Of a stretch of 35,624 nucleotides of DNA, positions 1 through 12,999 are shown piece by piece. Position numbers and translations under genes: made by a program. The notes below the pieces were generated by a model. That model ran no database searches and was not told the DNA's origin. It worked only from the letters and a program-made list of their open reading frames with translations. Positions within the stretch are counted from its first letter, which is position 1. Each line of letters begins with the position of its first letter. Source of the stretch: Cyclobacteriaceae bacterium (GTDB lineage Bacteria > Bacteroidota > Bacteroidia > Cytophagales > Cyclobacteriaceae); the NCBI GenBank assembly GCA_025350305.1, contig JANXYC010000213.1:1-35624 (forward strand), given 5' to 3'.

Positions 1-3000
1 CTCACTCCACTCTGCACTACCGTCCAGCTATAGGTCGTCCCCGCTACCGCGTTAGGATTACTCAATACTATATTCGTCGTCGCCCCACTGCAAAGCGTCT
101 GCGAGGCCGGCGTGGCCAACACAGTCGGCGTGGGATCGACGGTCACATTAACCGGACTACTAGCAGAAGAGCCATTAGCATCTTTGACCGTAACTGTATA
201 AGTGGTGGTACCCGGTGTACTTGCAGTGAAAACCGGGTTTGCCACGTTGGTGGCACTCAAACCTGTAACAGGAAACCACGCATAGCTATACCCCCCAACT
301 CCACCAGATGCGGTGGGCGCTCCACCCAATGTCACCGTCGCTAAATTACAAATGGTCTTATCCGTACCTGCGGCAGCAACAGGGTTTGAACCAGAAATAC
401 CTGTAAAAGCTGATGTTTGTCCTCCCACAATTGGTGCTCCAACTGCAGTAAGAGTGTTCCCAGCAAGTGCTGCATATTTTATCCAAGGATTGGTGATTTG
501 GTTAAACACGCCGGTCAATTCTGCGGCGCTGATACTACCTTCTGTACCAACAATGTTCAATGGTACATAGGTACCGGTCACAGTCGCACCACAACCAGTA
601 ATTCCAGATTGTGTGATATTCCAGTAACGACTTAAATAATCCGTAGTGCTGGCGTTGGACGGATGTTTTGCATCAACGACCGATACCCCCACATAGGCAG
701 CAACAAATCCGCTGCCAGCCGTAACATTTACCGTAATAGGTGAATAATCATAGGCACCTGTATTGTCACCAATCGGGAAAGTGAAAGAACCAACCGCTGT
801 AAATGTTTTTCTTACTTCGCTCCCTCCTGATGCGACAATCATTTTGGAAGCTGATGGTCCTGCTACTGAAATGGTAGAGGCAGGTCCCAATGTCAAATCA
901 TTGGCGCCGATGTTTAACCTCCCTGCATTTAATGTAAGTGTTCCGTTAACATTCGTTGCTCCATTTAATATTGCCTCTCCGCTTGATTGAGTAATGGTTA
1001 GACTGTTATAGGTTCCAGCAGTAACTGTCTGTGAGGCTCCATAGTATTCTATTGTTCCTGTACCAACTTCCAGGCCGTTTGATGGTCCAGAGAAACGAAT
1101 CATTCCACCCGTATTTGCAATTGCTCCAACAACAGAAAGGGTATTCGAAGCCATATCGAATACGGAAGAATTCGTGAGAGTAGAAGCTATATTAATGGTA
1201 CTTCCAGCATTCTTTTGACCTGCACCTGATAAGGTTAGATTATTATAGTTAACAGGGGTGACTGTCTGTGGCGAGCTACCATTGTAGTCAACTGTACCGC
1301 CATTATTGTTGAATGAACCACTGTTTGTGAAATTGCCGGAAATGCTCATTGTTCCTGATGTGGAGAGGAGCGTACCTGCGCTGACAATGAGATTTGTTAA
1401 CGTTACCGCATTGCTGGCAAAACTCAGTGTACCAGCACCGGCTTTTATCAAATCGAATGAACTTGAAATAACTCCTGTTAATGTGATCCCGTTTGTAGTC
1501 GTTATTGTACTTACACTGCCCAGGGTAATGTCTCCGCTATACGTTGCTGATGTCGCATTACTATTAATCAATGTACCCCCACTACTAATACCAGTTCCGT
1601 TTATTGTGAGCGCTTCGGCTCCGGCATAATTTATTCCATTCACATCAAGAACAGCTCCACTCGTAATAGTTGTTCCACCGACTATTGAACCTAAGGCTGA
1701 CATTGATCCTAGCTGTAATGTTCCCGTGCTGACGGTCGTTGTGCCGGAATACGTATTGACACCTGAGACCGTAAATATTCCTGCGCCTACTTTGGTCAGA
1801 CCGACGGCGGTTGCCGATCCGTCTTGAATAATTCCTGAAAAGGTAGTATTGGAATTGTCACCACCTGTTGTTAGTGCTATGGTACCCGCAACACTACTGG
1901 TCACTGTTCCTGCTCCCGCCAGAGAGCCTATGGTCTCACTATTACCTGCTAAATCCAACGTACCGCTTACCGTAACAGCACTTGCATCAGGTATTGTACC
2001 ACCAGCCAATCCAACTTGTAGGGTCCCTGCGCCGATGGTGGTTATACCTGAGTATGTATTGGCTCCGGAAAGTATCTGCACGCCCCCTCCGGTTTTAGAT
2101 AATGAAACCGTGCCGCTACCATTTTGTAAGACACCTGAAAATGTAGTGCTGGCGGCATTGCTTCCGGTAGTTAAGGTAACGGCACCGGCAACACCGCTTG
2201 TTATCGTCCCGCTGCCTTGTAAGTCCCCAACGGAGGTTGCAAAACCTCCAAGATCAAGGGTACCCGAAGTCATTATTAGGCTTCCAGTGATAGTTGTCGG
2301 TGCAGCCAGTGACACTGTAAAGGCTGGGTTGTTGATAGTCACATTGGCGGGCGTATTTTGCGTTAAACCATTGCCAACAGCCTGATCGGCAATTCCACTA
2401 TTATAAAAATAATTGGCACCCGTTGAATAGGTCCTTGTACCTGTTACTTGAATGTTTCCTGTCGCTCCTGAAGTTGTAACGCCAGCCGCTGAACTAACCC
2501 GGAGTGTTGCACCAGAACTTAGTACAAAATTACTGGCTCCCGCATCATTTATGACGCTGGTACTATTTATGGAAAGGTCTCCATCATTTTGAAATAACTG
2601 AGGCGTGCCACCCGAGTTAATCGTTACGGTTCCTGAAATGGTACCACTACCGGTTGACGCAAGTGTAAAGCTAAATTCGGTACCTGCTCCCGATCCCATG
2701 TTGAATGTCTTACCTGATGCAACCGTAAAGGAACCCGTCACTGTTACAAGATTGCCGGAAGCTGATGCAGCGAAAGTGCAGGTACCGTTTATCGTCAGGC
2801 TAAGTAAACTAATTGTCGGAACTGCAGTAATGCCTAGCAGTTGATCACTAGCTATAATGACGTCATCGCCAGGCAGTGGTGCACCGAGGGGGCTCCAGTT
2901 TGCTCCGGTAGTCCAGTTACCGCCGATAGTTCCGACCCAGGTTTTGGTCGCTGCAACTGCATCAAAACTTGCCCCTAAAGTAAAAATCAATAAGGCCAGC

Positions 3001-3053
3001 ACCAGTATACGATTGGTATTTCTTACAAGCGCCGCTAAAGAAAAAGTTTTCAA
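1..3053 (-). CDS. Giant secreted repeat protein, N-terminal part (autotransporter-type beta-strand repeats plus PKD-like domains); runs off left edge
   Basis: The minus-strand frame is open from about 3053 to base 1 (1017 codons) with no stop, so the C-terminus lies outside the window. The ORF track misses it because it has no in-window end. No ATG precedes the signal peptide. The best start is a TTG giving MKTFSLAALVRNTNRILVLALLIFTLG...AVAA, a clear Sec signal. Next comes a 'TWVGTIGGNWTTGANWSP' segment typical of surface repeat proteins. Two autotransporter-associated beta-strand repeats follow, each ending in an 'NTYSGxTTxxxGTLQ' motif and about 100 residues apart. Further on are a 'VGSFTFPIGDN' motif and, at the left edge, PKD-like modules ('TICNLATVTLGGAPTASGG', 'TPASQTLCSGATTNIVLSN'). 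Such proteins in Bacteroidota are usually exported by the type IX system and act in adhesion or gliding. The sorting domain would be in the missing part. Function is inferred; the reading frame is seen directly. Confidence 0.85.
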   Translation of the reverse strand, partial: MKTFSLAALVRNTNRILVLALLIFTLGASFDAVAATKTWVGTIGGNWTTGANWSPLGAPLPGDDVIIASDQLLGITAVPTISLLSLTINGTCTFAASASGNLVTVTGSFTVASGKTFNMGSGAGTEFSFTLASTGSGTISGTVTINSGGTPQLFQNDGDLSINSTSVINDAGASNFVLSSGATLRVSSAAGVTTSGATGNIQVTGTRTYSTGANYFYNSGIADQAVGNGLTQNTPANVTINNPAFTVSLAAPTTITGSLIMTSGTLDLGGFATSVGDLQGSGTITSGVAGAVTLTTGSNAASTTFSGVLQNGSGTVSLSKTGGGVQILSGANTYSGITTIGAGTLQVGLAGGTIPDASAVTVSGTLDLAGNSETIGSLAGAGTVTSSVAGTIALTTGGDNSNTTFSGIIQDGSATAVGLTKVGAGIFTVSGVNTYSGTTTVSTGTLQLGSMSALGSIVGGTTITSGAVLDVNGINYAGAEALTINGTGISSGGTLINSNATSATYSGDITLGSVSTITTTNGITLTGVISSSFDLIKAGAGTLSFASNAVTLTNLIVSAGTLLSTSGTMSISGNFTNSGSFNNNGGTVDYNGSSPQTVTPVNYNNLTLSGAGQKNAGSTINIASTLTNSSVFDMASNTLSVVGAIANTGGMIRFSGPSNGLEVGTGTIEYYGASQTVTAGTYNSLTITQSSGEAILNGATNVNGTLTLNAGRLNIGANDLTLGPASTISVAGPSASKMIVASGGSEVRKTFTAVGSFTFPIGDNTGAYDYSPITVNVTAGSGFVAAYVGVSVVDAKHPSNASTTDYLSRYWNITQSGITGCGATVTGTYVPLNIVGTEGSISAAELTGVFNQITNPWIKYAALAGNTLTAVGAPIVGGQTSAFTGISGSNPVAAAGTDKTICNLATVTLGGAPTASGGVGGYSYAWFPVTGLSATNVANPVFTASTPGTTTYTVTVKDANGSSASSPVNVTVDPTPTVLATPASQTLCSGATTNIVLSNPNAVAGTTYSWTVVQSGV

Positions 3054-3329: not shown

Positions 3330-4646
3330 CTAGTTTAACAACTTCCCATCTTGGTTCACTTTAATCAAGGTCAACTTGAATTCTCCAGCGTCTGATTTAC
3401 CGGTTCTCATGGTACCGATTAACAAAAGTCTGCCATCCGGTAACTCCTGGACTGCCCCAATTGCATCGAGTCCCTCTCCGCCAAACACAATGGGAAGATT
3501 CCAGGCAGTAGCGCCATCATTATTAACCTTTGTCAATATCCAGTTCTGATTATCATTAAAACTCTTCTCATTGGCTAAAACATAGAAGCCACCCTGTTGA
3601 GAACCGAAAACCGATGTCCTTTCATTCAGGTTACTACCAAGCACTATGGAAAGAGATTTTTGGAATTGATCGTCGGATGCATTGAATGCTAAGGGACTAC
3701 GCAATCGTAAAACATACATACTCCCGGCACCTGACTGATCGTACGTTATACCTGCCAGTATATACCCGCCACCGGATTGAGGAGGAGCAGCCGAAACTGA
3801 ACTCGGTTTTTCATTCTCAGACTGGTTGCCCAGATAACTATAATTTGAACCTACCCCTGTAAAATTAATTTTGTAATACCACACGTTATAATTTTCCTTG
3901 TTTTGTCCTGGAATCGGAGAATTTGAGAATCCAAACGCGTAAAACCCGTCGGATAACTGATAAATCTTCTTTGAAACATCGTCTGAGTAGAATCCATTCG
4001 TTTGAGTTATCGACCAGCCATTTTGATAAGGTTTCAAATCTTTCCTGACTCGAATATTCAAAGCATCCCTTGGGTCGCTCGATCCTTGCGTGCCCAAGGT
4101 CTTCCTGAAAACGTAAGAAGTGGAACCTGCAATAATAAAACCATCGGTTGTCTCCGTGACCGAGGCGGCATCTTCATCTCCTTTAGTAACATTTCCTGCA
4201 TTATCGAGAATGGGTATCAAAGCGCTGTCAAGCGGATCTCCATCCAATGTTAAGGTCATGATCCGGACATCCCGATCAGTGGCTGTTTTGTAGGTATTGC
4301 CGACAGCAACAAGCCGACCATCGGTGGTAAGCTCAATATCGCTTGCTTCTTCATCGGTTGTCCCTCCAAAGGTTTTCTCCCAAACCCGATTTCCTTTTGC
4401 ATCGGCCTTTACCAAATACCATTGACTGTTACTTCCTGCAGCTGACAGACGCGTTGTACCAAAGAGAATAAATGTTCCATCCGGCAACGCAACCAGGTCT
4501 GCCCCAGTCTGATCCCCATCACCGCCAAAAAATTTTACGAAATAGGATCTGTTCGGATCTTCAATTGATGAAGCAGAATCACAGCCCATCATGCTGGATA
4601 GAAAGAAGATACTTACAAAAAGAAAAAAGAAGCATACTAATCTCAT
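3330..4646 (-). CDS. Putative outer-envelope lipoprotein with beta-propeller-like repeats
   Basis: This 438-residue protein begins with a hydrophobic signal (MRLVCFFFLFVSIFFLSSMMGC) ending in a Cys at about residue 22. That is a plausible but non-ideal lipobox. The rest is built of repeated blades of the type 'FGGxxxDxAxDxxxxxDGxxxxxGxT' (for example 'FGGTTDEEASDIELTTDGRLVAVGNT', 'GGYILAGITYDQS' and 'FGGEGLDAIGAVQELPDGRLLLIGT'), resembling the kelch/beta-propeller-like repeats common in Bacteroidota lipoproteins. Its ATG overlaps the stop of the upstream barrel gene by four bases (ATGA), so translation is probably coupled. It is the third gene of the operon headed by the STAND NTPase. It has no recognised enzymatic motif; a binding or scaffold role at the outer membrane is inferred. 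Confidence 0.85.
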   Translation of the reverse strand: MRLVCFFFLFVSIFFLSSMMGCDSASSIEDPNRSYFVKFFGGDGDQTGADLVALPDGTFILFGTTRLSAAGSNSQWYLVKADAKGNRVWEKTFGGTTDEEASDIELTTDGRLVAVGNTYKTATDRDVRIMTLTLDGDPLDSALIPILDNAGNVTKGDEDAASVTETTDGFIIAGSTSYVFRKTLGTQGSSDPRDALNIRVRKDLKPYQNGWSITQTNGFYSDDVSKKIYQLSDGFYAFGFSNSPIPGQNKENYNVWYYKINFTGVGSNYSYLGNQSENEKPSSVSAAPPQSGGGYILAGITYDQSGAGSMYVLRLRSPLAFNASDDQFQKSLSIVLGSNLNERTSVFGSQQGGFYVLANEKSFNDNQNWILTKVNNDGATAWNLPIVFGGEGLDAIGAVQELPDGRLLLIGTMRTGKSDAGEFKLTLIKVNQDGKLLN

Positions 4647-5809
4647 TTGTCATTCCCTCCTTTTCTGATCTTACGAGACACGCTCCTGGTTCTGGCTTTT
4701 TTAACCTTACGGGGATCGTAAATGGGATGGATGTAACCCAATGAGAGCGATATGTTATCAAGTCGGAATAAATCGCTGACGTACCGAAACTTGGTTACAT
4801 TCTTAGAGATATAATAATCCGGATTGCCAATTTTATTTTTATCATTGTCCGCAGTCCGATCCGAATAAAAAATTTGGTTTTCTCTTGCCATGTTAGACAA
4901 TCCGCCCATGTAGCGGAGATCCACATACAAAAAGTCTTTCCCAATTTTATACTTTATTCCGCCACCAATAAGCCATGAACGATTCAGTTGGTTCTGCTGA
5001 TAGGTTACCTTCTCGCTCGGATCCGCCGCCAATAATTGGGAACCGTTGGGTTTAAAGTTCGTATATTGAAATAAATTTTTTGCCGACAGCAAATAGTTAA
5101 GGGCAAATCCGAAATAGCCAAACGGTCGAACTTTTCTATCGCTATTATCAGTATATTTTATGTATACTGGTACGTCCAACCAGAATTGAGTGTCTAGCAC
5201 TGTCTGTTCGTCAGATAGTCCAAACCTCGGAGAAATTCCACTGCGCACACGACGGTAGGCCCTGGACGCAAAATCAATTTCTGCACACAGGCTAATGTTA
5301 TCAGTAACATTCCAATCAATGCCGCCTCCGATTTGGCCATTAAGGCGCAGGGAGTTTTGCACCGAAACTCCATAAGGCTCGGTGCTGATGGAATAAATAC
5401 TTCGAAACAAAGACGTATTAAAACCGAGTCTGAAATGCGGAGTGAAGATGGGAGTAGCTGTAAATTTTTTGCTTAAATAGACAATATCAATAGGGTCCCG
5501 TTTATCATTTGCCACATATTCCGGATCGGCTTTCAGCAGTCTCAGATAACTGTCATCTGCTGCCAACGAATTATCTAAAATCAAATAGGCCTGACATAAC
5601 AAAAGATAGGCCCTGACGGTTTGTTCCTGTGACAATTTCCCTTCCGGACAATCACCCAATATCATTGGGATTGAATAGAAATGGCCTGCGTTAAATTCGG
5701 TCTCTGCGTGACTTAGTTTTTGGTCACATTCGCTTCCTTGCGCATACATTCGAAGGGTACAGGAAATAAGAAGAAGTCCCGCTAATAAAGGTCGCGCCGT
5801 TTTGTTCAT
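4643..5809 (-). CDS. PorT-family-like outer-membrane beta-barrel protein with periplasmic helical N-domain
   Basis: A signal peptide (MNKTARPLLAGLLLISCTLRMYAQ) is followed by a roughly 100-residue helical segment with TPR-like character ('CDQKLSHAETEFNAGHFYSIPMIL', 'AYLLLCQAYLILDNSLAADDSYLRLL'). From about residue 120 onward, alternating hydrophobic and aromatic strands resemble the Bacteroidota outer-membrane beta-barrel families (PorT/OMP_b-brl type), for example 'FRLGFNTSLFRSIYSIS', 'GGGIDWNVTDNISLCAEIDF' and 'LSLGYIHPIYDPRKV'. The ORF track starts at a TTG at 5812; the ATG at 5809 is preferred. That ATG shares one base with the stop of the NTPase gene (TGATG), which indicates translational coupling. 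It probably sits in the outer membrane with its helical domain facing the periplasm. The molecular role is unknown. Confidence 0.85.
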   Translation of the reverse strand: MNKTARPLLAGLLLISCTLRMYAQGSECDQKLSHAETEFNAGHFYSIPMILGDCPEGKLSQEQTVRAYLLLCQAYLILDNSLAADDSYLRLLKADPEYVANDKRDPIDIVYLSKKFTATPIFTPHFRLGFNTSLFRSIYSISTEPYGVSVQNSLRLNGQIGGGIDWNVTDNISLCAEIDFASRAYRRVRSGISPRFGLSDEQTVLDTQFWLDVPVYIKYTDNSDRKVRPFGYFGFALNYLLSAKNLFQYTNFKPNGSQLLAADPSEKVTYQQNQLNRSWLIGGGIKYKIGKDFLYVDLRYMGGLSNMARENQIFYSDRTADNDKNKIGNPDYYISKNVTKFRYVSDLFRLDNISLSLGYIHPIYDPRKVKKARTRSVSRKIRKGGNDK

Positions 5810-8800
5810 CAAAAGTCACTTATCAATAAACTTTTACATGTTGATTCATGGTCAATACCATTGCCAACGTAAATTTTCCATTCCTCCTTCGTCATATTGC
5901 GTTTCAGCCTGGGGCAAATCTGCTCGGCCAGCATCTTTGGATCGGTCTGCCAAACGCGAATTTCTCCATTATTACAAGAGGCCAATAAGTAATCCGAATC
6001 TTTTGTGAAGGCCAGTTTCCATACGTTGCTGTTGTTAATGTCCATGACGACTGGCAGGTCCTCTTTCTCATGATCCACTACCCACATTTGCAGCTTTTTA
6101 TCGAGACCTGCGCTGGCCAGCAGAAGTCCATCCGGACTAAACTCAACGTCGGAAACCCCTGCATTGTGTCCGGTAAGTTCCTTCATCAATTCAAGGGTCG
6201 CATAATTATACAGTTTCACAGAACCCTTCCACACCTGTTTTTCCTTAATAGTTTTATCCAAATACTCGGTTCCGTATGCAAGAATAGACTTTGTTGGATG
6301 AAAGGCGACTGAGAGTACCCGGATTTGATTAATTGATTCGTCAAACTTCAATTCGTATGAATTGTCTTTTAGATTCATCATTATCAATTGGCCAGATGCG
6401 GCAACGGCGGCGAGCAAACTTCCGTCCGGGCTGATATCAATCGATTTGATATCATAGGGTAAAGTGGTAAGCAATCTACCCTGCCCCGTGAAGTGGTTGG
6501 TAAATCGAACTGTATGATCTGAGCCAACCGAAATAAAGCCAGAGTTGTCGGGAAGAAATTTTATGTCAGCAATAAAACCTTTATGACCTTTTACCAGCCC
6601 CGGCTTTTCTCCGGGCTGGTCGAGATGGAAAATCTGAATGGTGGAAGAGTCACTTCCGTTGATAAGATATTTTTCGTCAAGACTAAGGGCCAGTACACGG
6701 TTTGGATAAGGGTTGAAATCGATAAGATTGTATGCCGTTTGTTTTAGATAATCTCCTTTAAATATTCTACCATCATTGCCGGTAGTGTAAAATGTACTGT
6801 TCCCATTTTTAGAAACTGCCAACCCAAACATCTTGTTTTTCAAGTTGCCTGGTATTTTTATCTGATTGTAATTAAAGTTCTCTGAAAGTTTTGCAATAGA
6901 ATAGTAAAGACCCTTGAATACATACGGATCATATTTGTGACCGCCATACTTCGTGTGATATAAATAACCTTGCATGGCGAGAAGGCCGGCCAGGTCCTTG
7001 TCATCTTCAATAGTAACTGATTTTGCTTCCAATGACTGCGCCACTGAAAGATATAATAACCTGTTTGCTTCATCACGTGCTTCTTGCGCTTTCACCTTTT
7101 GAGCAACGGCATCATCCTTCGCGGCAGCTTCCTGTTTTTGAGATGCAATGGCTATTTGTTCCTGCCGCACGGCTTCCTGTAAATTTTTCTCAGCCTCTGC
7201 CCGTGCAGTGTTTGCCTCCTTCAGCGCAATTGCGACTTGCTCAAGGGCCACACCAAGTTCTTTTGTTTTATTGACCGCTATGTCTGTTTGAGTCTTGGCA
7301 ATATCCCTTTGTTTATCTGCTTCATTTTTGGCTTCAATGGCTTGTTTCTCTTTTTCAAACGCACGATCTCGTTGCTTAGTGGCTTCAATAGACTGTGTGA
7401 ATCCATAAATCATAAAAAGCACAGCGATCACTGCAGCCGTACCCAACACAACCGAAGTAACCCGTGCTCTTCGCAGCGCCCTGCGCTGCAGCATTTCCTG
7501 ATTCTTCAGTTCTGCTTCGTAGGTGATCCTACTGGTGTCCAGGAAAACGATCGCTCTCTCAAAGGCTACATCATAGCGTTGCGCCCAAATGCGTGTAGGC
7601 TTTTGTTTTTTCTGCCAGTTTAGGGCAAGCTGCAAATCCGGTGGGCGCCAAAGACCGGCTTTTCCAGTCTGGTAGAGGGCCGCCGCATTTGAAATCCTCT
7701 TATACAACTGCGCTGATTCAAATTCCTCTTCCACCCAATTCGAGAGGCGCGTCCAAATGCGCATCAAACTTTCATGTGAAAGTTCTACAGTACTAGATCC
7801 ATTTAAATTAACCTGGCTGCCGGGCATCAGGAATGAACGACCAATTCTGCGGAAACATTCTACCACACGGATTACCTCATCCTCCGTAACACCTGCAAGT
7901 TCGGCCACTACTTTTATTTTTGCGGGTCTCCGAAGGCCTTGATTTTCCTGGTTCTTTTCAGTAAGGCTTTTAAACAATTCTTCCGCAACTTCCTTTTCTC
8001 CCGAAGTCAATTCCTCATACGCTTCATTGGCATGAAGGGAAAGGGCCTGACTGATTCTTCCGATAGCATTATAATGCCTCAAATCAATGGGTTCGCCTGG
8101 TTCCCGGTTGGCAACCCAGTAATCCCATGTTCGCATGAGAGCGTGCTGCATAATGGGCAATTGATCCTGGTGATCACCAATGTCGCTGAGCAACCTTTTC
8201 ATCAACCGCGAAGTAATGGTACCTCCCCCCACTGCTACCGGCCCTTCAATGGCCAGGCGCTTTTGCTCTCGGCTCATTTGAGGCACCAGATAATTGCTGC
8301 CATTGATCATTTCTGTGAGCCCGGAGAATACAGAACATTCACCTATGAAATCTGATCGCATGCTAAGCGCGATGTACAAGGATGTATCCCGCTGTCGCAC
8401 TGCATTGAGTATCAGGCATACATACTGTGCTGACTCGTTAGTAGGCTCTTCACCAAACTCACGATAGCGAAGTAATTCTTCAAATTGATCAATAAGGAAA
8501 AATACATTCTCCTGATCAAGACGTTGGAGATAGCGTGTCACCTCTATTAAGCCATCAGGACCACTCTGCAAAACTGACTTAATAATAGCGGATTGAATGA
8601 GCCTATCCTCTTGCTTAAGTCTACCACTCACTTCCAGATGATTGACGATCGATTCTGCAAGATTTGAGATGGGCGAATTACCTGGTCGCGTGGTGATCAC
8701 TTGCCAGTTAGGGCCTGTTTTGGTCATGAACCCCCCATAAAGTTCGGGCACCAGACCGCAGAACATCAGACTTGATTTGCCACTGCCAGAATAACCCATT

Positions 8801-8997
8801 ACGGTCACTGAGCGATGCTCAGAAAGCTTGAGAAGGATCTCATCTACCTGCCCTTCCCGGCCAAAAAACAGGTGTGATTCTTCAATGCTGAATGGACGCA
8901 GTCCCGGAAACGGATTGGCACCTAAAGGTTCCAAACCTTGCTCCCTTTGACGGTTCTCTTCAACCAATTCTCCCGTTTGTACGGAATAATTCAGCAT
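5809..8997 (-). CDS. nSTAND1-type NTPase - transmembrane helix - coiled coil - WD40 protein
   Basis: This 1062-residue protein has four parts. Residues 28-480 are a STAND-class P-loop NTPase of the nSTAND1 type: the lead-in motif 'NPFPGLRPFSIEESHLFFGRE', Walker A GYSGSGKS (68-75), Walker B 'FFLIDQFEELL' (166-176), a 'SMRSDF' sensor-like motif near 212, and 'LPIMQHALMRTW' near 280. Residues 513-532 form one transmembrane helix preceded by the basic run RRALRRAR. Residues 535-660 are a long Ala/Glu/Lys-rich coiled coil. Residues 720-1018 hold WD40 repeats ('GHKGFIADIKFLPDNSGFISVGSD', 'GHNAGVSDVEFSPDGLLLASAGLD'), closed by the 'NMTKEEWKIYVG' tail often seen after such propellers. STAND proteins are known as nucleotide-driven signalling switches. 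From positive-inside topology I infer a cytoplasmic NTPase and a periplasmic coiled coil and propeller. It heads the operon with the barrel and lipoprotein genes. Confidence 0.92.
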   Translation of the reverse strand: MLNYSVQTGELVEENRQREQGLEPLGANPFPGLRPFSIEESHLFFGREGQVDEILLKLSEHRSVTVMGYSGSGKSSLMFCGLVPELYGGFMTKTGPNWQVITTRPGNSPISNLAESIVNHLEVSGRLKQEDRLIQSAIIKSVLQSGPDGLIEVTRYLQRLDQENVFFLIDQFEELLRYREFGEEPTNESAQYVCLILNAVRQRDTSLYIALSMRSDFIGECSVFSGLTEMINGSNYLVPQMSREQKRLAIEGPVAVGGGTITSRLMKRLLSDIGDHQDQLPIMQHALMRTWDYWVANREPGEPIDLRHYNAIGRISQALSLHANEAYEELTSGEKEVAEELFKSLTEKNQENQGLRRPAKIKVVAELAGVTEDEVIRVVECFRRIGRSFLMPGSQVNLNGSSTVELSHESLMRIWTRLSNWVEEEFESAQLYKRISNAAALYQTGKAGLWRPPDLQLALNWQKKQKPTRIWAQRYDVAFERAIVFLDTSRITYEAELKNQEMLQRRALRRARVTSVVLGTAAVIAVLFMIYGFTQSIEATKQRDRAFEKEKQAIEAKNEADKQRDIAKTQTDIAVNKTKELGVALEQVAIALKEANTARAEAEKNLQEAVRQEQIAIASQKQEAAAKDDAVAQKVKAQEARDEANRLLYLSVAQSLEAKSVTIEDDKDLAGLLAMQGYLYHTKYGGHKYDPYVFKGLYYSIAKLSENFNYNQIKIPGNLKNKMFGLAVSKNGNSTFYTTGNDGRIFKGDYLKQTAYNLIDFNPYPNRVLALSLDEKYLINGSDSSTIQIFHLDQPGEKPGLVKGHKGFIADIKFLPDNSGFISVGSDHTVRFTNHFTGQGRLLTTLPYDIKSIDISPDGSLLAAVAASGQLIMMNLKDNSYELKFDESINQIRVLSVAFHPTKSILAYGTEYLDKTIKEKQVWKGSVKLYNYATLELMKELTGHNAGVSDVEFSPDGLLLASAGLDKKLQMWVVDHEKEDLPVVMDINNSNVWKLAFTKDSDYLLASCNNGEIRVWQTDPKMLAEQICPRLKRNMTKEEWKIYVGNGIDHESTCKSLLISDF

Positions 8998-9127: not shown

Positions 9128-12100
9128 TTACACATAATCCAAAATTCGATCCGCGAGCTTTACATTTTCAGTCAAAAGCTCATATAACAGGTCCTTGTTA
9201 AGTTTAAGGAGTATGGACTTCTCTTTCGCTAAAAGTGTGTTTGACTTTGCAAAGCCTGACAACGAAAGCATCTCGCCAAGAAACTGTCCTTTTTTGAATA
9301 CTGTCTGATGGACCCCTTTGTCATAAAAGTCAATTTCACCGGCATATACAATGTAAAAATTATTATTCGTCCGCTCATCCAGCGAAAGGGAGTCATTCTC
9401 CTTTAATAAATCTACTTCGGCGATGTCGGCCAGGAACGAAAGGCTGAGTCCTGAAATACCGGTGAATATTTTAATTGAACTTAAGAAAAGGATTTTATCA
9501 AAGAGCATAAGGTCAACCTGCTCTCCGGTTTTAATTACAGCGTCCAATTCTCGCTGGATCTCATGACCCAGTCGCCCTGCGTTAGTCTCGTACAATTCAG
9601 GATCTAATTGATACAATGCCCAAGCGGCCATCTCCCGTATCAATCGGTCAGGGTTAAACAACTGTGCAATCAGATCCAACGTAAACTCCTGGATCTTAAA
9701 GAGACCAATCTGGCGAAGAACGCACGCTTTGGTCCACCGGTTAGTTTGTGTAAAATCCCGGTTGATCAAAAATTTAAGAACGAGCTTTTCATCCAGTTCG
9801 ATTCGAGGATAGAAAACTTCCAGCTTCTTGATCCGATCCTGTTCCGAAAGCTCGTCCAGCACAGGGATGACCCGTTCTTTTAATTGCTCTGATAAGAATA
9901 CGTCCAGCAGTTCTATGGCAAATGCTGTTCCTTCGACCGTACCGCTTTCAATGTTCTCCTTTACCAATTGAATAGATCGCGTGTCGTGTAACATAGCCAT
10001 GAGCATATACACATGATCAATATCATTCGATATTTCAGCGCGGACGGCTTCCTTGACCTCCTTTGCGAAACCTTCATTTCCGAGTTCGACTACAGCGCTT
10101 AAATTCCAACTGATATCACCGATATCATTTTCAATAGCAAACTTGATTCTGGATATCTGCGCTATTCCCGCTTTAAAACCAGCTTCACCCATTGCCAATA
10201 ATACCTTTGCAACAACCACCTTATCAGGATAATCTATTTTATTCCACAAAAGATCCTTGCCACGCTGACCACCTATCCTGCCAATAATTTGGACAATTCG
10301 AATCAATATTTGGGTGGTTTGCCCGGATCGGTAAAATGAACTTTCAAGCTGGCTGAGTGCCTTCCCGCCGATCAGTACCAGGGCGCTCATTGCTTGGTTA
10401 CTGTAAATGGGATTGCTCAGATTTTCTATTAAGGCAAGGATTACCTCGGGACTATTCTTTTTTATTGAGGTCTTAATCGCAGTGTACCTCACCTTTGGTT
10501 CCGGATCATTCAACAACTCAATTAGGAAAGACGTGTTCTCATCGCTGGATGTATGCAGCAAGAGTTCCGCTGCATACTGTCGATCACCGGGTTCGTGCGA
10601 GCGAGTAAGCCTTAAGATTCTCGATTTTGTTATATCGCCGCCACTGTTGATAATCAATTCCAATTCACTCTTGCTCAAAAGGTTCTTGTCCGAAACATTT
10701 GACTTCGCCCGGTCATAGTGTATCACATAACGATCTGACACGGAGAGCCCCTTCATTTCATTCATCTTTCGTTGCGCATATTCACGCGTTTCTTCCTTTC
10801 CATTCCGGATCAGACTATTGATCCATTGGCTCATGTTCGTTGGGCTAATCTTCTCCAAAAGCTTATATGAAAAAACCGCGACACCTGGCTGCTCATTTAA
10901 CAATCTGGTTTCCAACTTATGAGTTATCTGGCCATACCCGATTTCAAGTTTTTCTGGCGATGACTCGGTCGTTTCCAACTTCGACCGGATTTTTGCTTTA
11001 TAGCCAGTGTATAATTTCCGAATTACAAGAAAATAAGAGCCTATTAAAACGCCAATGAGGATGGGCATCCAGACAATTTTGAAAAAAGGCAGGGTTGCAA
11101 ATACGAATATGAGAATCCCTGCGGTAAACCGACCTGTTTCATTAACCACACCCTCCACTTTTGATTGAATACCAAAGCGGTATCGATTGTCGATCGGGAT
11201 GAATAGCAATTTGAACATGGGGTTCTCCAACGAATCACGTATCATGTTGTTGAAAAGCCGGATTAAGGCGACGAACAAAAAGAAATAAATGAAACTCGTC
11301 GGTGCCATCTCCGGTGTATAACCAAAAACTAGACCGGTGAAACTGGCACTGATGACAAATACTCCTACTACAATCGGCAATAGCATGAGTGCAATCCGGA
11401 TTCCATAATTACTTATCAGCTTGTCATTGACGAATGTCTGCATAATGAAGCTAAGACCATAAATCGCCCCGTTGAAATAAGCAAGGAAGTTGGTCAACTC
11501 CCGCTGGTTGGGATATTGGACCTTAATAAGTTCCTGAAAAGTGAACTGACCGAAAATCAACGTCACCATGGAAATGATGAGAAACAAGGACAAGAGTTTG
11601 GTGTATGGATCGGTAAGCACTTTAGTCATACTGGTTTCCTTGACTACAGAGGCATCAAATTCCCTGGGATCATTCTTAATGAGGGGGAATTTGTATGAAA
11701 TAACTATAAAATGAACAGCGGATACCATGATGCTTAAGCAGCATATTATCAAGTAGTTATCAGTTGATGGAAAGAAACTTGCTGTAATTGGAATCAAGAT
11801 ATTAGCAAGGATCACAGCAATTAATTGCCCTGTATCAATCCATCCAATTATTCGCTTGGATTGTTTAAAATTGAAAAGTCTTCCAAAGATTCCCCAATAG
11901 CTTAACAGCAAAATGGCTGTAATAGGACCCGTCATGCAAAACATGAAGAAGATGATTGGTTTTTTATATTCCTCCGGCCCATAATGGTAGCCTACGTAAA
12001 AGAATGCCGTAATCGCCACGACAAACAGAATCGAGAACGTAGTAAGGTTTGAAAACTTAATTCTGTTTTGGACGAAGGAAAATAATAAGGTGGCAACGAT

Positions 12101-12289
12101 GCCGAGGACTCCAGATACCAGGAACGCTTTGTTTAACTCGCCTCCCAGGGTACTCAGGAAGAGCGATTCTGCTACAACGCTATAGGTTGCAAAGAAAATA
12201 CCCATAAAGAATCCTGCCCCAAGCATGAGCATGACCTGAAGCCGTTCCTCATGACGTACATTCAAAAAAGCCAGCAGTGACTGAAACAT
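9128..12289 (-). CDS. ATP/ADP-translocase-like (NTT family) permease fused to HEAT repeats and a cyclic-nucleotide-binding-like domain
   Basis: This 1053-residue protein starts with about 12 hydrophobic helices over residues 1-430, in the layout of the NTT nucleotide-transporter/MFS family ('VMLMLGAGFFMGIFFATYSVVAESLFL', 'MTGPITAILLLSYWGIFGRLFNFKQSKRIIGWIDTGQLI'). A soluble middle section of about residues 450-920 is rich in HEAT-type helix pairs ('LLNDPEPKVRYTAIKTSI', 'LFNPDRLIREMAAWALYQLDP'). The C-terminus, about 935-1053, is a cyclic-nucleotide-binding fold ('FYIVYAGEIDFYDKGVHQTVFKKGQFLGEMLSLSGF'). The phosphate-binding cassette lacks the usual Arg (KSNT where RxAT is expected), so cNMP binding may be lost. 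Permease-HEAT-cNMP fusions are known in free-living bacteria. The substrate cannot be told from sequence. It appears to be a single-gene unit. Confidence 0.85.
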   Translation of the reverse strand: MFQSLLAFLNVRHEERLQVMLMLGAGFFMGIFFATYSVVAESLFLSTLGGELNKAFLVSGVLGIVATLLFSFVQNRIKFSNLTTFSILFVVAITAFFYVGYHYGPEEYKKPIIFFMFCMTGPITAILLLSYWGIFGRLFNFKQSKRIIGWIDTGQLIAVILANILIPITASFFPSTDNYLIICCLSIMVSAVHFIVISYKFPLIKNDPREFDASVVKETSMTKVLTDPYTKLLSLFLIISMVTLIFGQFTFQELIKVQYPNQRELTNFLAYFNGAIYGLSFIMQTFVNDKLISNYGIRIALMLLPIVVGVFVISASFTGLVFGYTPEMAPTSFIYFFLFVALIRLFNNMIRDSLENPMFKLLFIPIDNRYRFGIQSKVEGVVNETGRFTAGILIFVFATLPFFKIVWMPILIGVLIGSYFLVIRKLYTGYKAKIRSKLETTESSPEKLEIGYGQITHKLETRLLNEQPGVAVFSYKLLEKISPTNMSQWINSLIRNGKEETREYAQRKMNEMKGLSVSDRYVIHYDRAKSNVSDKNLLSKSELELIINSGGDITKSRILRLTRSHEPGDRQYAAELLLHTSSDENTSFLIELLNDPEPKVRYTAIKTSIKKNSPEVILALIENLSNPIYSNQAMSALVLIGGKALSQLESSFYRSGQTTQILIRIVQIIGRIGGQRGKDLLWNKIDYPDKVVVAKVLLAMGEAGFKAGIAQISRIKFAIENDIGDISWNLSAVVELGNEGFAKEVKEAVRAEISNDIDHVYMLMAMLHDTRSIQLVKENIESGTVEGTAFAIELLDVFLSEQLKERVIPVLDELSEQDRIKKLEVFYPRIELDEKLVLKFLINRDFTQTNRWTKACVLRQIGLFKIQEFTLDLIAQLFNPDRLIREMAAWALYQLDPELYETNAGRLGHEIQRELDAVIKTGEQVDLMLFDKILFLSSIKIFTGISGLSLSFLADIAEVDLLKENDSLSLDERTNNNFYIVYAGEIDFYDKGVHQTVFKKGQFLGEMLSLSGFAKSNTLLAKEKSILLKLNKDLLYELLTENVKLADRILDYV

Positions 12290-12375: not shown

Positions 12376-12999
12376 TTACTTCTTCTTACCAGCGATTGAG
12401 TCTTTCCTGGCAAGATTGGTTGCTTGTTCGGATTTATATAATTCGTTTAAGCCATTAATTACATCCTTGCTGATATTCAAGGTTTCACCCCCGAATAACA
12501 AATCGCTGGTTGCATCATATTTCAACACCACTTGCAGGTCTTTTTCTTGTCCATATTTTTTTAAATAGGACGTCACGCGATTGTATAGATCCTTGGTCAT
12601 CTTTTCCTGCTCGATCTGCATTTCTTGTGAAAGGCTCTCCTGGTACAATTGAAGATTCTGTCTCTTCTTTCCTAAATCCTCCTCCACGGCACGCGCCTGG
12701 CCCATTGTAAGGGTGCTGGAATTTCGCTGGTACGATTCAAATTCGTTTTGCAAACTTTGGGCGCGGCCTTGTAAATCCTGGTCCAATTTTTTGCCCTTCG
12801 ATTCCAATCGTTCCTTGCCCGCCTTGAAATAATCGTAATATTTTAATACGGAGTCTGAATTGATATAAGCAATTTTCAAGTCTTTGGTAGCGGATGTATC
12901 CGCGCTTTTAAGATTCCCATATCCTGAAAAGTGCAGGTAATAAAGTCCGGCGACTGCCAAAAGCAAAATTGCATTTAGTGCAAGGGATAGATTTTTCAT
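12376..12999 (-). CDS. OmpH/Skp-family periplasmic chaperone
   Basis: The 207-residue protein has an N-terminal hydrophobic helix (LSLALNAILLLAVAGLYYL), a signal or anchor. The Skp-type opening strand 'KIAYINSDSVLKYYDYFKAGKERLESKGKKLDQDL' follows, then a long charged coiled coil up to about residue 150 and the closing strand 'DLQVVLKYDATSDLLFGGETLNISKDVINGLNELY'. This is the OmpH layout. Skp-type proteins hold unfolded outer-membrane proteins in the periplasm. The length is slightly greater than E. coli Skp (161) because of a Lys-rich tail. The gene has its own terminator and a TATATTTG -7 box upstream, so it looks monocistronic. Confidence 0.9.
   Translation of the reverse strand: MKNLSLALNAILLLAVAGLYYLHFSGYGNLKSADTSATKDLKIAYINSDSVLKYYDYFKAGKERLESKGKKLDQDLQGRAQSLQNEFESYQRNSSTLTMGQARAVEEDLGKKRQNLQLYQESLSQEMQIEQEKMTKDLYNRVTSYLKKYGQEKDLQVVLKYDATSDLLFGGETLNISKDVINGLNELYKSEQATNLARKDSIAGKKK

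Follow-up and report, generated by a model that had tools for sequence, protein, structure and literature searches.

A 35,624-nucleotide stretch of DNA from a Cyclobacteriaceae bacterium (contig JANXYC010000213.1 of assembly GCA_025350305.1; hereafter the window) carries three overlapping genes at positions 3330–8997 that encode a STAND NTPase, an outer-membrane (OM) barrel protein and a beta-propeller lipoprotein. These genes, their internal features and their two operon neighbours all lie on the minus strand. The NTPase gene (5809..8997; 1062 residues) ends in a TGATG overlap with the start of the barrel gene (4643..5809; ATG at 5809), whose stop in turn overlaps the start of the lipoprotein gene (3330..4646) as ATGA. 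The coordinates and both junctions confirm what a sequence-only reading of this DNA had described. Because the gene order is retained at ∼50 loci from the genus and order, a chance arrangement of open reading frames can be ruled out. The unit is wider than these three genes: it extends upstream to at least 9128–12289, which encodes an ADP/ATP-carrier (NTT)-like membrane protein, and includes a large surface-protein gene (3..3053) that is cut by the contig end. The operon parts are, in order, the carrier-like protein, the NTPase, the barrel, the propeller lipoprotein and the surface protein. Taken as a whole, this locus probably connects the OM to a cytoplasmic ATPase.

The NTPase, defined by domain searches, a structural model and synteny, joins an nSTAND1 domain to a transmembrane helix, a coiled coil and a WD40 propeller. 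The nSTAND1 domain (residues 29–445; 7663..8913; predicted cytoplasmic) matches Pfam PF20703 at E 1.8e-89 over profile positions 1–374 of 379, that is, at full length. Its Walker A motif (GYSGSGKSS, residues 68–76; 8770..8796) is near-invariant in a 47-sequence alignment, in which D170, Q171, E173 and E174 of Walker B (FFLIDQFEE, residues 166–174; 8476..8502) are invariant. The strict Walker A pattern GxSGSGKS[ST] is present in 107 of 126 distinct full-length homologues; these were chosen by NTPase similarity, so fractions given for them describe this nSTAND1 branch and not all nSTAND1 proteins. The WD40 propeller (residues ∼712–1017; 5947..6864; predicted periplasmic) is supported by Pfam (E 2e-26), by the structural model and by a PDB profile search that matches 2ymu and also APAF-1. 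With its full-length domain, Walker A and B motifs and C-terminal superstructure-forming sensor repeats, the protein belongs to the nSTAND1 clade of STAND NTPases. An AlphaFold2 model places helices at residues 479–576 and 591–662, followed by the propeller and a short helical tail, with low confidence within the coil.

Several signals bear on how this protein sits in the envelope. A single transmembrane helix (∼513–535; 7393..7461) follows the basic run RRALRRAR, and 117 of the 126 homologues likewise have one hydrophobic segment. Lysine and arginine are in excess N-terminal of the helix in 125 of the 126 (mean net charge +4.4 versus 0.0). The coiled coil beyond it (∼536–662; 7012..7392), delimited by alignment, lengths and the model and predicted to be periplasmic, carries alanine at heptad spacing (539, 546, 553, 560, 567, 595, 602, 609, 616, 630 and 637). 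Across the homologues, the distance between the transmembrane helix and the helix after the coil is, for example, 142, 156/157, 163/164, 170/171 or 177, and 116 of 126 fall within two adjacent classes modulo 7. This distance is larger, up to 187, at loci where the barrel is replaced by a TonB-dependent receptor. From the distance classes and the seven-residue recurrence of alanine, insertions and deletions appear to keep whole heptads, as expected of a load-bearing coiled coil. Finally, two cysteines in the C-terminal tail (Cys1028 and Cys1054; 5836..5916) probably form a disulfide: after the propeller, both are present in 110 homologues, both are absent in 16, and none has just one. This all-or-none, disulfide-like pattern favours the periplasm. 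Charge excess, heptad lengths and cysteine pair together support a periplasmic coil and WD40 part as the predicted topology.

The majority of STAND sensors characterised so far are found in the cytoplasm, a compartment in which WD40 propellers are common. As in a classical STAND protein, the WD40 part could accordingly be cytoplasmic, with the hydrophobic segment a mere anchor and the OM genes merely co-regulated; the APAF-1 and WD40 matches of the NTPase suit this arrangement. The charge excess, the cysteine pair and the heptad-conserved coil speak against it, and so does a comparison in other Bacteroidota, described below, where OM proteins with the barrel's N-terminal domain follow kinase-transmembrane-PEGA proteins, in which PEGA is expected to lie outside. 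Those neighbours independently support the same architecture, and a cytoplasmic propeller is very improbable.

The second gene matches OMP_b-brl_2 (E 1.9e-11) and begins with a helical, TPR-like N-terminal domain (NTD) of ∼98 residues (5447..5737) with two conserved cysteines. This domain, delimited by alignment, is common to TonB-dependent receptors and to OM proteins adjacent to kinases. Barrel and receptor NTDs align by hhalign at 99.5% and E 3e-23 and are thus one domain, for which a PDB search gave weak TPR matches only. No STN domain was matched in the barrel or the receptors; the receptors showed only Plug and barrel domains. Identification of the barrel as PorG of the type IX secretion system (T9SS) was rejected at 18.9 bits against an NCBIfam equivalog cut-off of 130, and PHROGs gave no match for the barrel or the lipoprotein.

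The NTPase and NTD-bearing OM proteins are closely linked in Cytophagales. Directly after the 126 NTPase genes lie 106 small barrels with the NTD and 12 TonB-dependent receptors with the NTD, so that an NTD-bearing OM protein follows in 118 cases; the remaining eight have neither. Named carriers are all Cytophagales and include Chryseolinea, Ohtaekwangia, Chryseosolibacter and Fulvivirga. At E 1e-90, the NTPase is present in 70 of the 242 genomes taken from the order and in 14 of 346 sampled across the phylum. Among 59 related genomes, 45 have both NTPase and NTD, one has the NTPase only, none has the NTD only, and 13 have neither (Fisher p 3e-12, ignoring phylogeny); for genera other than that of the window, the counts are 11 with both and 11 with neither. 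Where both occur, the NTD gene is directly downstream of the NTPase in 76 of 78 cases, with a median gap of 87 bp. At the receptor-type loci (L062:3618-12889 and similar), STAS and RsbW-like ATPase genes adjoin, suggesting a link to partner switching, and an isoamylase-like gene is found among these neighbours.

The remaining OM-side genes are tied to the small-barrel subtype. The lipoprotein has a signal peptide and a lipobox cysteine, Cys22, which is kept in at least 90% of 47 homologues (lipobox pattern in 81 of 100). Its AlphaFold2 model is an all-beta propeller (mean pLDDT 84.7) whose top Foldseek match is the CylK propeller (E 3e-13). The protein architectures proposed in the sequence-only reading have therefore held up: the NTPase with Walker A/B, a membrane helix after a basic run, coil and WD40 (Pfam and model), the barrel with a helical periplasmic domain (OMP_b-brl_2 match and NTD alignment) and the propeller-like lipoprotein (lipobox, model and fold match). 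The same reading had expected the three families to co-occur. That expectation stands for the NTD-bearing OM protein and only in part for the lipoprotein, which lies at most three genes away in 94 of 102 small-barrel loci and in 0 of 12 TonB-receptor loci. The propeller lipoprotein is a subtype-specific part of the system.

The truncated surface protein has PATR and PKD domains by Pfam. Its complete relatives span ∼1,740–2,200 residues and have a T9SS sorting domain at the C-terminal end; Pfam confirms this tail in one (L094; Por_Secre_tail E 7e-15), and in others it was recognised by eye. A large gene comes next in 80 of 106 small-barrel loci. This arrangement, together with the very weak PorG resemblance of the barrel, would suit an assembly or energising machine, in which the NTPase would act by way of the barrel and lipoprotein to power the placement or secretion of the T9SS surface protein. 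The receptor versions lack both lipoprotein and surface gene, and the alternative partners of the NTD, kinases and a histidine kinase, are signalling proteins. We regard such a machine as unlikely.

The carrier-like protein (9128..12289; 1053 residues) matches ADP/ATP carriers over its first ∼440 residues (PDB 9j3n, E 1.6e-22, profile positions 11–443), followed in Pfam searches by HEAT repeats and a CNB-like domain. Its gene is near the NTPase in 94 of 104 small-barrel loci and 11 of 12 receptor loci. The CNB-like domain is not claimed as a cyclic-nucleotide sensor: by eye, the GE of the phosphate cassette is kept and the usual arginine is not evident.

A paralogous operon in the same genome (contig C85; L064:4342-14517) illustrates what the cytoplasmic side may contact. 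Its NTPase is 41% identical to that of the window and is preceded by a gene for a 475-residue TIR/DUF4062-like protein, which combines TIR_2 and DUF4062 with what may be a third, TIR-like domain. A tree of the NTPases contains one clade of 25 members for the window type (A) and one of 46 for the paralogue type (B), each with support 1.0. All A members have the barrel and none has the TIR gene; all B members have both. A Skp/OmpH-like gene (window 12376–12999) is found upstream of the carrier-like gene at many A-type loci and not at B-type loci. Elsewhere (L056:10867-12885, Pfam-confirmed, and L143:10928-12961), a SpoIIE/HAMP phosphatase gene lies between the carrier-like and TIR genes. On contig C291 of the same genome (L065:6018-15950), a TIR/DUF4062-like gene is followed by two tandem divergent nSTAND1 proteins of ∼1330 residues, with no barrel. 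Contig C263 (L066:8115-8710) has two small genes, for products of 107 and 91 residues, adjoining a formylglutamate-amidohydrolase-like gene; each product has one transmembrane segment and a coiled coil, and the first is 59% identical to the start of the window NTPase's transmembrane and coil region.

The paralogous operon also raises the prospect of an NLR-like antiphage or programmed-death system, in which the NTPase would sense invasion and trigger a NAD-consuming TIR/DUF4062 effector, the OM genes being incidental or detecting phage adsorption. nSTAND1 domains are found in conflict systems (PMC8195603), DUF4062 is a NADase family used in antiphage defence (PMC13174449), and the C85 gene unites TIR_2 with DUF4062. 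Another kind of conflict system, EACC1 (Kaur 2020), is marked by an EACC1 transmembrane component and a partner fused to a caspase. The candidate effector in the C85 operon fits poorly. It is absent from the window operon and from the whole A clade, and the TIR_2 glutamate is missing in 47 of 47 Cyclobacteriaceae-type TIR-like proteins (kept in 13 of 35 others). The DUF4062-equivalent residue, its position being inferred, is glutamine in 46 of the 47, and the C85 copy has no glutamate at either candidate DUF4062 position; neither operon thus holds a NADase effector with its catalytic glutamate. Moreover, PADLOC gave no match for the three window proteins, and a conserved position and, within the genus, a copy number of one or two per genome are unlike defence islands. 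The defence reading was rejected on the missing PADLOC match and glutamates, and its probability is low. Since the TIR and putative DUF4062 glutamates are mostly missing, a scaffold role for the TIR-like partner is more likely than NAD depletion.

The NTD is also present in Bacteroidota lineages outside Cytophagales. Loci from which an NTD gene was recovered make up two sets, of 17 and 18; L191, in the first set, is itself from Cytophagales, and order-level searches around two genomes (G397 and G275) gave identical genomes and were counted once. A recognisable membrane-spanning transducer lies directly upstream of the NTD gene in 23 of the 35 loci: a Ser/Thr kinase in 12 (6 + 6 in the two sets), an nSTAND/AAA_35 or related protein with WD40 in five (2 + 3), a transmembrane-PEGA protein without kinase in five (1 + 4) and a hybrid histidine kinase in one (1 + 0). 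PEGA was confirmed in most of the scanned kinases, and the five checked each show a kinase, a single transmembrane segment and then an ectodomain. Five of these genomes hold 13 NTD loci, of which 8 come after a Ser/Thr kinase, against only 103 kinase matches in ∼23.6 Mb (binomial ∼4e-16, with an assumed total of ∼21,000 genes). At one nSTAND1-WD40 and NTD pair, a CHAT-domain protein is encoded directly upstream (L221:7638-9293).

The OM-side NTD thus recurs next to varied inner-membrane switches. We lean, with little more than even confidence, towards a Bacteroidota trans-envelope receptor family, undescribed so far, in which the NTD joins barrels or TonB-dependent receptors to interchangeable inner-membrane transducers: WD40-bearing STAND/AAA_35 ATPases, PEGA-bearing Ser/Thr kinases, and histidine kinases. 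The open-access literature yielded no relevant earlier description of PEGA kinases with OM proteins, of STAND with TonB or TIR, or of trans-envelope kinase signalling. If such a family exists, its STAND members would be the first switches of the NLR type to have an OM-facing sensor, and the common OM domain would be a sequence handle for assigning partners to many bacterial kinases and STAND proteins that are now orphans.

For the window itself, we put the probability that the locus encodes an OM-to-cytoplasm signalling unit at roughly 70%. In the proposed mechanism, the nSTAND1 ATPase switch would sit in the cytoplasm and one helix would span the inner membrane. The coiled coil, with its ∼127 residues about 19 nm long, would then place the WD40 propeller in the outer periplasm, where the WD40/coil region may meet the TPR-like NTD of the barrel, or of the TonB-dependent receptor in sister systems. 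On the side of sensing or adhesion, the system could be extended by the propeller lipoprotein together with the surface protein that T9SS secretes. A change in the OM or surface protein would pass through NTD and coil and switch the nucleotide state or oligomerisation of the NTPase. This state might be read by cytoplasmic partners, namely the mostly non-catalytic TIR/DUF4062-like scaffold of the paralogous operon and the carrier-like HEAT/CNB membrane protein. The sequence-only reading had proposed both a periplasmic coil and WD40 region and a link from the OM to a cytoplasmic ATPase. Charge excess, cysteine pair and heptad-quantised coil support the predicted topology, and these signals and the NTPase–NTD adjacency largely support the link; contact, signal direction, nucleotide switching and output are our inference.

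Some observations weigh against this signalling unit. The homologues are related, so the counts are of non-independent events and carry no phylogenetic correction. Eight of the 126 NTPases, and more distant nSTAND1 proteins (L061, L123–L127 and the C291 pair), are without an NTD protein, and about one-third of NTD loci outside Cytophagales are without a recognised upstream transducer. The C-terminal cysteine pair is absent in 9 of 12 receptor-type loci and is thus not required by the architecture. Both the topology and the physical contact are predictions.

For only a few systems is it known how the cytoplasm learns of OM events, and the locus would add a previously undescribed route for surface signals in Cytophagales. 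In FecA-FecR-FecI, the N-terminal periplasmic domain of an OM protein contacts a single-pass inner-membrane regulator and so relays OM state inward. The present systems likewise pair a barrel or TonB receptor bearing an N-terminal periplasmic domain with an adjoining gene for a single-pass regulator. Unlike in Fec, this domain is TPR-like and helical rather than STN, most barrels are small OMP_b-brl_2 proteins, and the regulator is a STAND NTPase (elsewhere a kinase or histidine kinase) rather than an anti-sigma factor; at the window locus, a scan of six genes found no FecR anti-sigma or ECF sigma factor. PknB-like PEGA kinases share a cytoplasmic switch, one transmembrane segment and an extracytoplasmic beta domain, and have NTD-bearing OM proteins directly downstream in other Bacteroidota. 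Here, an ATPase switch takes the place of the kinase and WD40 that of PEGA, and a coiled coil separates the two. Like NLR-like STAND switches, the window NTPase has a full-length nSTAND1 domain, Walker A/B and a C-terminal WD40; unlike them, its transmembrane helix and long coil are predicted to put the propeller in the periplasm, and it is tied to an OM barrel operon with no fused effector. Coupling a STAND switch to an OM barrel would bring NLR-type machinery into envelope sensing. Finally, TEP1, which shares STAND/WD40 architecture with APAF-1, combines DUF4062/TIR-like, STAND and WD40 parts in one chain (PMC13174449). The paralogous operon unites the same parts over two proteins and two predicted compartments, with the catalytic glutamates of the DUF4062 NADases (Swarozyc) mostly absent, and the window operon has no DUF4062/TIR-like gene. 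By resemblance rather than membership, the paralogous operon can be likened to a TEP1-like set whose parts are divided between the two sides of the inner membrane.

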